From: Beggiatoa alba B18LD
GTDB lineage: Bacteria; Pseudomonadota; Gammaproteobacteria; Beggiatoales; Beggiatoaceae
Direction: 5' to 3'
Assembly (NCBI RefSeq): GCF_000245015.1
Contig: NZ_JH600070.1
Location: 1,227,284 to 1,291,283 of the forward strand
DNA: 64,000 bases
Shown here one piece after another: positions 2,281 through 57,416 of the stretch. The position numbers and the translations under genes were made by a program. Numbering within the stretch: position 1 is the stretch's first letter; each line of letters opens with the position of its first letter. The notes under the pieces are model-generated. The model was not told where the DNA came from. It saw nothing but the letters and a program-made list of their open reading frames with translations, and made no database searches.

Positions 2281-2485
2281 ATAAAAACAGAAACCTGCTA
2301 GATTTTGAAAACCTAGCAGGTTTTTTTGTCTGAATCAGAATTCACAGAATTTTCAGAATTAGCAGCATTAAAAAACGTGATTCACCTTAAATTTTTGGTT
2401 TAAAGGTTTTAAATCCTGTTAATCCTGAAAATCCTGATTCAGACAAGCTGTTGTCTTTTTTAAAAGAAACTCGCTGAACTCAGGT
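2281..2485 (+). repeat. Element A copy 1 (hairpin at left end, left terminus lost)
   Basis: Starts just after the maeB stop. It contains the ACCTGCTAG...CTAGCAGGT hairpin followed by a T-run, then long inverted arms beginning GTCTGAATCAGAATT and ending AATCCTGATTCAGAC. The right terminus is CTCGCTGAACTCAGGT. The left terminal repeat is missing, so this copy is 5' truncated. The hairpin plus T-run is a plausible rho-independent terminator for maeB. The rest of the maeB-prlC gap (to 2531) shows nothing else. Confidence 0.8.
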
Positions 2486-8791: not shown

Positions 8792-8927
8792 TGTCTGAAT
8801 CAGGATTTTCAGAATTAACAGAATTTAAAACCCTTAAACCAAAAATATAAGGTGAATCATGCTTTTTAATTCTACTAATTCTGAAAATTCTGTGAATTCT
8901 GATTCAGACAAGCTGTTGTCTTTTTAA
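8792..8927 (+). repeat. Element A fragment, copy 2 (inner arms only)
   Basis: Contains the inverted inner arms, from TTGTCTGAATCAGGATT to TTCTGATTCAGACAAGC, but lacks the hairpin and the left terminus. It abuts copy 3. Between 8766 and 9158 there is no gene: the gap holds copies 2 and 3 only. Confidence 0.7.
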
Positions 8928-8929
8928 TA

Positions 8930-9127
8930 GCCCGAGTTCGGCGAGATTCCTTTAAAAAGACAAGGGATTGTCTGAATCAGAATTTTCAGAATTAACAGAA
9001 TTTAAACCCCTTAAACCAAGAAATTAACGCGAATCACGTTTTTTAATTCTGCTAATTCTGAAAATTCTGTGAATTCTGATTCAGACAAAAAAAGACCTGC
9101 TAGGTTTTAAAAACCTAGCAGGTTTTT
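8930..9127 (-). repeat. Element A copy 3 (hairpin at right end)
   Basis: Inverted orientation relative to copy 1. It begins CCCGAGTTCGGCGAGATT, runs through the inner inverted arms and ends in the ACCTGCTAGG/CCTAGCAGGT hairpin flanked by poly-A and poly-T. The right terminal repeat is absent. The hairpin stands about 30 bases downstream of the ispH stop and, read on the minus strand, is a plausible terminator for it. Confidence 0.75.
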
Positions 9128-9158
9128 TTAGCTTTTCTTGATGAGAAGTAAAATCATT

Positions 9159-17446: not shown

Positions 17447-17468
17447 ATGCCCGCTTGTTTTAGAACTA

Positions 17469-17695
17469 ACCTGAGTTTTGCGAGTTTTATAAAATAAAAC
17501 AGAGACCTGCTAGGTTTTGAAAACCTAGCAGGTCTTTTTTTGTCTGAATCAGAATTCACAGAATTTTCAAAATTAGCAGGATTCGCATTAATTTCTTGGT
17601 TTTAAGGGGTTTAAATTCTGTTAATTCTGAAAATTCTGTGAATTCTGATTCAGACAAATACTTGTCTTTTTAAAAAAATCTCGCCGAACTCAGGT
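17469..17695 (+). mobile_element. Element A copy 4, complete, with target-site duplication
   Basis: The best-preserved copy, 227 bases. The left terminus is ACCTGAGTTTTGCGAG and the right terminus CTCGCCGAACTCAGGT, forming a terminal inverted repeat. Inside are the ACCTGCTAGG/CCTAGCAGGT hairpin and long inverted arms of 9-base CAGAATT units. The element is bracketed by the direct repeat TAGAACTA at 17461-17468 and 17696-17703, as expected from transposition. No coding capacity. It occupies most of the 17395-17748 gap. Confidence 0.85.
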
Positions 17696-17748
17696 TAGAA
17701 CTAGCAATCTTTTTTTAGCTGAATCAAGATTTTCAAAACGAAAAGCTT

Positions 17749-27135: not shown

Positions 27136-27314
27136 ACCTGAGTTCGGCGAGTTTCTTTTAAAAAGACAACAGCTTGTCTGGTGAATTCCGATGAAAAACA
27201 AGAGAGTAATCTCTGCCAGTCCTCCAAACCGATTCGCGTGTTCCGACAGACCTGCTAGGTTTTCAAAACCTAGCAGGTCTCTGTTTTATTTTATAAAACT
27301 CGCCGAACTCAAGT
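27136..27314 (-). mobile_element. Element A copy 5 with direct flanking repeats
   Basis: Left terminus ACCTGAGTTCGGCGAG and right terminus CTCGCCGAACTCAAGT with the ACCTGCTAGG hairpin next to the right end. The inner inverted arms have been replaced by unrelated sequence (around 27180-27245). The element is bracketed by TAAAAAT on both sides, a likely target duplication. Confidence 0.8.
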
Positions 27315-27407: not shown

Positions 27408-27611
27408 ACGCGAGTACGGCGAGATTCTTTTAAAAAGACAAGAGCTTGAGTGTTGTAGGGTGGAATAGCGTAGCGTATTCCACCTTGAAATTCTGCAAAA
27501 ACTGAGCAAAAAAAGATTATAAATCGTAGGGTGGAATACGCTTTGCTATTCCACCCTACATTTTTTAGTTGAAAAATTCTAAAAGGTTTTCGCCACTCGC
27601 CGAACTCGCGT
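27408..27611. mobile_element. Element A-like copy 6 carrying a different interior
   Basis: Ends ACGCGAGTACGGCGAG and CTCGCCGAACTCGCGT match the element A termini, but the interior differs. It holds two copies of a GTAGGGTGGAATA repeat: 27455-27486, imperfect, and 27526-27559, with perfect 13-base arms around an 8-base loop. A CTGGCAGTCC hairpin near 27632-27652 follows. With copies 5 and B-2 this fills the 27057-27687 gap; I see no gene there. Confidence 0.65.
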
Positions 27612-51443: not shown

Positions 51444-51464
51444 CCTGAGTTTGATAAATTAACG

Positions 51465-51681
51465 CTAGTTCGGCGAGTTTTATAAAACAAAACAGAGACC
51501 TGCTAGGTTTTCAAAACCTAGCAGGTCTTTTTTTGTCTGAATCAGAATTCACAGAATTTTCAGAATTAGCAGAATTAAAAACATAATTTTTTATTCTTTT
51601 AATTTTCTTGTCTTTTTAATTCTGAAAATTCTGATTCAGACAAGCTGTTGTCTTTTTAAAAGAATCTCGCAGAACTCAAGT
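51465..51681 (+). repeat. Element A copy 7
   Basis: Left end ACGCTAGTTCGGCGAG is partly diverged; the hairpin and inner CAGAATT arms are intact and the right end is CTCGCAGAACTCAAGT. No clear target duplication. Sequence between 51444 and 51465 resembles another AACCTGAG end. No gene in the 51444-51724 gap. Confidence 0.75.
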
Positions 51682-55774: not shown

Positions 55775-56941
55775 ATGGCGTTAAATATTCCCCTCATCAC
55801 CAACACACTAAAAAATTGTTTACCCTCGCGGAATTTTATCGCCTTACATGAACCCCGTTTTGCAGGACATGAATGGGAATACGTTAAAGAATGCATAGAT
55901 ACGGGGTGGGTTTCTTCTGTCGGTAAATTTGTTGACCGTTTTGAACAGCAACTAGCTGAATTTACAAATATTAATCATGCGATTGCAACCGTTAACGGTA
56001 CAGCCGCGTTACATATTTGCCTGCTGCTTGCGGGTGTACAAACCGATGATGAAGTATTAACGCCTGCGCTGACCTTTATCGCTAGTACAAACGCAATTGC
56101 TTATTGTCGAGCAATTCCCCATTTTATTGACAGCACCGACCGCACGTTAGGGGTTGACCCTATCAGTCTGGCGGATTATCTCGCCGAAATTGTGCAGATA
56201 AAACAAGGCATCAGTTATAACCGACAGACACAACGCCCTATCCGTGCATTACTGGTGATGCACACCTTTGGACATCCTGTCGAATTAGACCCCTTGCTTG
56301 AACTCTGCCAACGTTATCACTTAATCTTGATTGAAGATGCTGCCGAAGGATTAGGCTCTTATTATCAAGGTCAACATGTCGGACATCATGGCAAACTCAG
56401 TGCCTTGAGTTTTAACGGTAATAAAGTGATTACGACAGGTGGAGGAGGTGCAATTCTCACCCAAGATGCAAGTCTTGCAAAGCAAGCGAAACATTTAACG
56501 ACCACCGCAAAACTGCCACACGCATGGCGATTTGACCATGACCAATTAGGCTATAACTATCGCTTACCCAACATTAACGCAGCACTTGGCTGTGCACAGT
56601 TAGAACAATTACCCACTTTTTTAGAAGCAAAACGCCAACTTGCCCAACGCTATCAACAAGCCTTTGCGACCATTTCAGGCGTGCGTGTCATACAAGAACC
56701 TATAGAAACTATTAGTAATTATTGGCTTAACGCGCTACTGTTAGAACCTGCTTATGCAGACCAACAAACGGCATTATTAACCGAGACTAATCAACAAGGT
56801 ATCATGACTCGCCCCTGTTGGACATTGCAGCACAAACTCCCCATGTATCAAGCCTGCCCTCGTATGCCTTTACCTGTTGCTGAAAGCCTTGAAGCTCGTT
56901 TAATTAATATTCCCAGTAGTCAAGGTTTAATGTTTGATTAA
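55775..56941 (+). CDS. legC: LegC-family aminotransferase (DegT/DnrJ/EryC1)
   Basis: A 388-residue PLP aminotransferase that puts a 4-amino group on a keto-dideoxy sugar nucleotide. Landmarks include GTAALHICLLLAG, LTPALTFIASTNAI, the PLP site LIEDAAEGLGS, and the lysine in LSFNGNKVITTGGGGAIL. Family fit is to the LegC type, and the presumed upstream dehydratase LegB lies about 1.4 kb away on the opposite strand. Its stop codon overlaps the first base of an element A copy. Confidence 0.78.
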   Translation: MALNIPLITNTLKNCLPSRNFIALHEPRFAGHEWEYVKECIDTGWVSSVGKFVDRFEQQLAEFTNINHAIATVNGTAALHICLLLAGVQTDDEVLTPALTFIASTNAIAYCRAIPHFIDSTDRTLGVDPISLADYLAEIVQIKQGISYNRQTQRPIRALLVMHTFGHPVELDPLLELCQRYHLILIEDAAEGLGSYYQGQHVGHHGKLSALSFNGNKVITTGGGGAILTQDASLAKQAKHLTTTAKLPHAWRFDHDQLGYNYRLPNINAALGCAQLEQLPTFLEAKRQLAQRYQQAFATISGVRVIQEPIETISNYWLNALLLEPAYADQQTALLTETNQQGIMTRPCWTLQHKLPMYQACPRMPLPVAESLEARLINIPSSQGLMFD

Positions 56942-57099
56942 GCTGAATTCTGCGAGTTTATGTTGAAAAGACAACAGCTTGTCTGAATCAGAATTCACAG
57001 AATTTTCAGAATTAGCAGAATTAAAAAGCATGATTCACCTGACTTTTTGGGTTTAAGGGTTTTAAATTCTGTTAATCCTGAAAATCCTGATTCAGACAG
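56941..57099. repeat. Element A copy 8 (partial)
   Basis: Begins AGCTGAATTCTGCGAG, overlapping the legC stop, and includes both inner inverted arms (to CCTGATTCAGACA). Lacks the hairpin and right end. The 56942-57513 gap holds only repeats. Confidence 0.65.
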
Positions 57100-57145
57100 T
57101 GTTTTAATCTTGCCGATTAAAGTAAGGTCAAACAGACCTACTATA

Positions 57146-57416
57146 ATCTGAGTTTGGTGAGTTTCTTTTAAAAAGACAAGAGCTTGTCTGAATCAGGATT
57201 AAAAGATTGTCTGAATCAGAATTTTCAGAATTAACAAAATTTTCAGAATTAAAAAGACAAGAAAATTAAAAGAATAAAAAATTATGTTTTTAATTGTTTT
57301 TAATTCTGCTAATTCTGAAAATTCTGTGAATTCTGATTCAGACAAAAAAAGACCTGCTAAGTTTTGAAAACCTAGCAGGTCTCTGTTTTGTTTTATAAAA
57401 CTCGCCGAACTCAAGT
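57146..57416 (-). mobile_element. Element A copy 9 inserted in element B
   Basis: Left end ATCTGAGTTTGGTGAG, right end CTCGCCGAACTCAAGT with the hairpin next to it; interior arms partly duplicated. Flanked on both sides by TACTATA (57139-57145 and 57417-57423). The right-hand copy runs into element B copy 5, so the A copy landed at the end of a pre-existing B. Confidence 0.8.

Follow-up and report, generated by a model that had tools for sequence, protein, structure and literature searches.

Positions 17469-17695 of the window, the whole 64-kb stretch of DNA that was analysed, hold a complete 227-bp repeat element with two inverted ends, enclosed by an exact 8-bp duplication. Its parts are the following:

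17461..17468, no strand assigned: left copy of the 8-bp target duplication TAGAACTA (read from the sequence)
17469..17695, no strand assigned: complete element, 227 bp, two inverted ends
17469..17484, plus strand: left terminal inverted repeat ACCTGAGTTTTGCGAG, two mismatches from the end motif
17504..17534, no strand assigned: P module, palindrome GACCTGCTAGGTTTTGAAAACCTAGCAGGTC followed by T7, terminator-like (sequence, module scan and fold)
17540..17657, no strand assigned: H module, a hairpin of CAGAATTNN microrepeats, TGTCTGAATCAGAATT...AATTCTGATTCAGACA, of GxxExxY type (module scan and fold)
17680..17695, minus strand: right terminal inverted repeat, exact ACCTGAGTTCGGCGAG (end-motif scan)
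17696..17703, no strand assigned: right copy of the target duplication TAGAACTA (read from the sequence)

The original prediction of a mobile element, here called family A, spanned 17461-17703, i.e., the element together with both of its 8-bp duplications. Folded as a single RNA strand, this copy reaches -113.7 kcal/mol, against -43.4 for shuffles (z = -15.06), and its H module matches the flanks of a GxxExxY gene elsewhere in the genome (locus L095). With up to three mismatches allowed, the end motif ACCTGAGTTCGGCGAG has 13 matches in the window (shuffle mean 0.20, none of 100 shuffles reaching 13). The copies, which sit between protein ORFs, are listed below; none was assigned a strand:

2281..2485: partial copy, right end only (end-motif scan)
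8792..8912: H hairpin that lacks a left end of IS982 type
8930..9130: partial copy in which the left end, H and P are present, right end not found
27136..27314: 179-bp copy that lacks the H hairpin and is flanked by the 7-bp duplication TAAAAAT
27408..27611: 204-bp copy whose ends are of the type found on the resident insertion sequence (IS), ACGCGAG, its core a GTAGGGTGGAATA repeat, exact duplication absent
51462..51681: 220-bp copy with P and H, exact duplication absent
56941..57117: copy with both ends degenerate
57146..57416: 271-bp copy, 7-bp duplication TACTATA

The predicted count of at least nine copies or partial copies is thus real, with both ends present at 17469, 27136, 27408, 51462 and 57146 and partial copies at 2281, 8792, 8930 and 56941. 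All three duplications that had been claimed, TAGAACTA (8 bp), TAAAAAT and TACTATA (7 bp each), proved exact and flush with the ends; the expectation of 7-8 base duplications at further copies did not extend to the two-ended copies at 27408 and 51462, neither of which has an exact one.

Ends and target duplications across the genome

The ends are numerous well beyond the window: with up to two mismatches, the end motif has 259 + 260 = 519 matches in the genome, against 1 + 1 for a reversed-pattern control. Complete elements were collected from a wider sample of 864 kb (the window and 40 other stretches, a 20% sample of the 4.27-Mb genome) as pairs of ends 60-700 bp apart, using a first filter stricter than that of the window scan, which missed at least the 51462 copy. 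By this definition, 100 of the 187 ends in the sample pair into 50 elements and 87 are unpaired. The paired elements listed are 123-467 bp long and contain no transposase gene.

Flush, exact duplications of 6-8 bp flank 13 of the 50 paired elements (6 bp in five, 7 bp in six and 8 bp in two), compared with means of 0.36, 0.18 and 0.08 and maxima of 3, 2 and 2 for these lengths in permuted controls, in which left and right flanks were re-paired at random. An exact duplication is absent from 36 of the 50, and one element has 5 bp only. With one mismatch allowed, the count at 7 bp stays at 6 (permuted mean 1.45, maximum 7), and simple ageing therefore does not explain the duplication-less copies, for which recombination between copies is our guess. 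The dinucleotide TA adjoins the left end of 34 and the right end of 41 of the 50 elements. Insertion with duplication of 6-8 bp is real for a minority of copies.

Intact sites were sought by comparing the joined flanks of the 50 elements with the sample, where many matches were due to tandem copies and a single case was retained. In this case, a free H hairpin encloses an element at C2:78200-78517 that is flanked on both sides by TAATTC, a 6-bp duplication, and the host arm minus one TAATTC aligns without gaps over 117 columns to another hairpin. An alignment keeping both copies of TAATTC scores slightly higher (168 versus 159), because one extra microrepeat unit also fits. The nested insertion supports insertion into a clean target. 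Empty-site comparison with a genome of the same genus (G001) is prevented by a break in collinearity, which ends at window position 17448.

These data also bear on whether the repeats are instead structural or regulatory palindromes, such as terminators or RNA-processing signals, spread by recombination rather than by transposition. The strong fold, the terminator-like P module and the 36 elements without a duplication would all suit that explanation. However, flush duplications far exceed the permuted controls, one element has inserted into another repeat (C2:78200), and the ends are common to transposase-encoding IS982 elements, which together make it very improbable; in their pure form, the regulatory-palindrome explanation and one by chance were rejected on the strength of the duplications and of the flank controls.

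IS982-family insertion sequences with similar ends

A 287-aa gene lies between two ends 1,067 bp apart (C2:4145665-4146731), and its product is a transposase that scores 250.6 bits against the IS982 model NF033520 (cut-off 130) and also matches PF13612. This protein has 26 matches in the genome, four of which cover residues 1-287 without a stop. None of the 26 falls inside the window coordinates, and the original statement that the window lacks the mobilising IS is correct for the IS982 family. A search of the named genome collection returned a single relative, on a cyanobacterial contig, with 50% identity.

The resident IS ends, ACGCGAGTACGGCGAA/G, share 13 of 16 bases with those of the short, transposase-free elements, a miniature inverted-repeat (MITE) architecture, and differ from them by three fixed differences among the 16 positions. 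One resident IS copy (L030) is flanked by a 7-bp duplication, TACTTTA, a length matched by the 6-8 bp of the MITEs. The outer 12 MITE bases, ACCTGAGTTCGG, are identical to the ends of two IS982 copies in the same-genus genome (L069 and L082), which end in TAACCTGAGTTCGG and whose protein is about half identical; the outer ends of the MITE are therefore of IS982 type. The predicted IS with matching ends is accordingly present in part, as a resident IS982 with 13 of 16 bases and a same-genus IS982 with the outer 12; an intact IS with the exact MITE ends was not found in the genome. Farther afield, IS982 ends read ATAACCTGAGTTCG in G027 (L068) and AACATGAGTACGG in a cyanobacterium (L055). A clear IS982-type end pair was recovered from 7 of 13 aligned IS loci; at L029 and L031 the end alignment picked neighbouring repeats, and L075, L076, L079 and L080 gave no pair. 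At one further locus (L027:5562-6731), the left end of an IS982 copy falls within a MITE, just after the P palindrome and half of the H hairpin of that MITE.

Which IS982 moved the elements is a separate matter. The resident IS, with its ACGCGAG ends, may not be the mover at all, a lost relative with ACCTGAG ends having made every copy, so that all are now fossils. The three fixed differences, the exact outer 12 bases on the same-genus copies, two fragments of a 45%-identical IS982 protein (C2:3959449 and C2:1185774) and the absence of a duplication at many copies are consistent with this. Against it, several copies combine perfect 16-base ends with intact duplications, which suggests some recent movement, and ACGCGAG-ended copies exist (27408), hence both end types mix. 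We consider a wholly extinct mover a credible alternative, although we lean against it. Whichever relative was involved, the prediction of a MITE with an unlinked transposase is supported by inverted ends, flush duplications above permuted controls, the lack of a transposase gene inside and similar-ended IS982 copies elsewhere, with the qualification that exact duplications are missing from most paired elements and that nearly half of the sampled ends are unpaired.

The hairpin core and the GxxExxY genes

A module scan of the 50 elements gives a recurrent order: end, S, H, sometimes V, P, end, in which S is a spacer (AAAGACAACAGCTTGTC), H is the hairpin (GTCTGAATCAGAATT...AATTCTGATTCAGAC) and P is the palindrome described above. 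H is present in 38 of the 50, and the 12 without it include 179-bp copies, built as S-V-P or S-P, and four whose core is GTAGGGTGGAATA. The latter, an inverted repeat that we take to be REP-like, replaces the usual core inside IS982-type ends at window 27408-27611 and in three other sample elements. The palindrome GGACTGCCAGTCC has 102 matches (up to one mismatch) in the 864-kb sample of the source genome (G000), and for 42 of these the nearest MITE end is over 300 bp away. Of 208 H matches in the sample, 85 are enclosed by paired ends, 94 have an unpaired end within 300 bp, and 29 are free.

Ends and hairpin have very different ranges. The MITE end (up to one mismatch) has 186 + 186 = 372 matches here, occurs once each in three of 56 other genomes, and has none in the same-genus genome. 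For H, by comparison, 24 of the 35 further genomes from the family have at least 10 matches, with a maximum of 286 (G019), and 21 genomes outside it have at most three each; in G008, G015 and G019 H takes the form of solitary hairpins of roughly 80-120 bp. Since the ends are nearly private and the hairpin is widespread in the family, H is the older and wider family of the two. Family A is a composite, whose core is a separate hairpin family, and this make-up is what the MITE reading, otherwise largely right, had missed. At two loci of G015 (L187 and L190), half H hairpins lie between GTAGGGCGGATAAGG inverted repeats, one repeat family again being inside another.

The source genome has two PF13366 genes, both of which NCBIfam assigns to GxxExxY, with scores of 127.4 and 137.9 bits (cut-off 35). 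One (L095) has a complete H hairpin on each side, to which the hairpin of the 271-bp copy (57200-57350) is 88.9% identical over 153 columns; the other (L094) has arms of a different sequence, CACGAAANN. The window hairpins also match GxxExxY flanks in other genera (L104, L107, L110 and L123); at E 1e-4 they do not match L094, L106 and L108, three GxxExxY loci whose arms are of different types. The description of the protein as PD-(D/E)XK nuclease-like is a Pfam assignment (PDDEXK_3); one solved-structure match was obtained, weak (E = 0.01), and was not credited.

We measured this association by comparing the best inverted match between the 150-bp flanks of an ORF (plus 60 bp inside it) with 200 dinucleotide shuffles. 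Weak or partial matches (L115-L122) were excluded beforehand, and seven loci with no usable ORF by motif (L109, L112-L114, L154, L160 and L175) were dropped. Significant inverted arms, defined by none of the 200 shuffles reaching the score, flank 34 of 54 GxxExxY genes, versus 2 of 75 neighbouring non-overlapping ORFs (0/11, 2/43 and 0/21; Fisher p = 8e-15) and 3 of 300 random ORFs of the source genome; for the other 20 GxxExxY genes, significant arms were not found. The 34 comprise 10 of 18 in a nearer set (16 from the own family and 2 from the class), 20 of 28 in a second set (27 from family f49 and 1 from the class) and 4 of 8 in a plasmid set. At p <= 0.05 the corresponding figures are 41/54, 12/75 and 19/300. 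Many f49 loci share one old site; when loci whose outer flanks can be aligned are merged, a rule that over-merges, 31 sites are left, and 18 have a significant member. An earlier test with 250-bp windows (score at least 25) had given 9 of 17 GxxExxY loci versus 3 of 621 source-genome ORFs; seven of the 49 further ORFs at those loci also scored, without having been separated from the GxxExxY gene, and the test is superseded by the 150-bp one. A scan of 1,693 sample ORFs of at least 60 aa for inverted arms gave three with a score of at least 25, all of them translated MITE sequence.

The plasmid GxxExxY genes come from five phyla, with significant arms in Gemmatimonadota, Bacteroidota (two) and Alphaproteobacteria, and those of Persicobacter, Fusobacteria, Treponema and Prevotella are microrepeat-flanked by eye only; GxxExxY genes within arms have statistical support in at least three phyla. 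On a Sphingomonas plasmid (L152:1955-2420), fabD and fabG enclose one such gene, which has CGCGAAG arms to either side. Of 35 arms, 13 have their best internal repeat lag at 9 and 11 at 10 (24/35).

Arms and proteins vary together. For 14 family loci whose outer flanks are unshared, arm similarity correlates with protein identity with a Spearman coefficient of 0.71 (0/2000 permutations), and for 39 loci, omitting 57 pairs with alignable flanks, with one of 0.55 (0/1000). Individual arm types can also be highly repeated: GTCTGAACTGTGATT occurs 250 times in G023 and 232 times in G008, the GxxExxY genes of both carrying that arm type, 36 times in G034 (same-genus), 10 times in G021, where three of the matches adjoin its own GxxExxY gene, and not at all in the source genome. 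In G001, with 4.3 Mb, there are two matches (exact or near), both just upstream of its GxxExxY gene. G009 and G017 point the other way, with 16 and 14 matches of the second arm type but a PF13366 match that is only weak or broken.

As an association, the link between GxxExxY genes and hairpins is well supported. This leaves the question of whether the two are neighbours by chance or through shared permissive intergenic sites, with GxxExxY playing no part in hairpin movement; it may be a hitch-hiking gene. A full-length PF13366 match is absent from G015 and G019, which have 143 and 286 H matches, as is an S23 match, and in these genomes the gene has either disappeared or is not what spreads the hairpins. 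Such H-rich genomes, together with the 20 GxxExxY genes without significant arms and the similar microrepeats, seen by eye, around genes of the unrelated S23 family, fit a neighbourhood of this kind. We nevertheless find it the less convincing account, if a plausible one: neighbouring and random ORFs so seldom have arms, arm similarity tracks protein identity across unrelated outer flanks, and the only two G001 matches of one arm type sit immediately upstream of the GxxExxY gene there.

S23 is known from intervening sequences of 23S rRNA. In relatives, S23 (PF05635) genes occur between short, mostly heptamer-like tandem repeats, by eye in 7 of 13 listed places (L213-L218 and L222), where the flanking repeats include CAGTTAT, AATTAAC and AATTATG. 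With their heptamer arms, S23 genes may form a parallel class, linked to those intervening sequences.

A composite element and its relation to known systems

Taken together, these observations make it highly probable that family A is a MITE of composite make-up whose ends are of the IS982 family, that a transposase of this family moved it, and that it took up the H hairpin as cargo. The transposase, from the resident IS or from a lost relative with ACCTGAGTTCGG ends, would have cut the element out and re-inserted it at TA-bounded, AT-rich sites. The usual body runs from one end through the S spacer, H hairpin and P palindrome to the other end; on this reading, H is not IS982 material but the solitary form of the hairpin that brackets GxxExxY genes elsewhere. 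An IS982 MITE would have captured such a solitary hairpin, and the hairpin would therefore here be carried mainly by IS982-type transposition, its own spread in the source genome having been overtaken by that of the MITE. As an IS982-type MITE, family A is confirmed as an already known kind of element, with the captured GxxExxY-type hairpin as a variant feature.

A wider and more tentative reading, to our minds falling just short of probable, takes the H core for a derivative, without the gene, of a seemingly undescribed mobile class, in which a GxxExxY gene sits in the loop of arms made of 9-10 nt microrepeats and moves with them as a unit. Gene and arms would reach unrelated sites jointly, the arm sequence being specific to each protein lineage, and solitary hairpins would multiply by the hundreds, presumably through action of the putative nuclease on cruciform or single-stranded hairpin DNA.

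As a MITE, family A is ordinary except for its scale (519 ends in 4.27 Mb), and its importance is the cargo that it exposed. Many genomes of a single family contain dispersed microrepeat hairpins, and in several phyla such hairpins adjoin members of a little-known gene family. That one mobile family can be carried by another can mislead repeat annotation.

In the open-licence PMC literature, where two papers name GxxExxY and one further paper PF13366, we found no published link between GxxExxY and hairpins; PMC8934634 mentions GxxExxY in passing. PMC4679880 describes TAACTGA direct repeats in marine Beggiatoaceae, hundreds of sets of which directly precede start codons as possible regulators and which resemble the arms in being short tandem units; its text mentions neither S23 nor GxxExxY. 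An IS982-derived MITE has been described in a Cardinium endosymbiont, in which it is proposed to stay mobile via intact parental IS982 copies (PMC9769881). Family A is alike in being non-coding, in its IS982-family ends and in its lineage-specific spread, and unlike it in that its ends are not exact to those of the resident IS and that it has an unrelated hairpin core and several exchangeable cores. In the Coxiella intervening sequence, tandem heptamers lie just upstream of the S23 start and the sequence is excised by RNase III (PMC4990558); the likeness to the GxxExxY loci is that a long inverted repeat carries a small gene in its loop. The GxxExxY genes and H hairpins differ from the 23S intervening sequences in being located among protein genes, in having units mostly of 9-10 nt and in involving a different protein family.

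The other parallel is with the REP/BIME palindromes and RAYT, in which many dispersed intergenic hairpins per genome have a single-gene partner in the same genome. The H hairpins are likewise dispersed and intergenic and have a single-gene candidate partner. Unlike REPs, H does not carry the GTAG head that we associate with them, a GTAGGG repeat being instead the alternative core at 27408, and its candidate partner is a PDDEXK_3 protein whereas that of REPs is a tyrosine transposase. REP palindromes became testable once their partner transposase was known, and with a cognate gene the spread of the H hairpins becomes testable in the same way.
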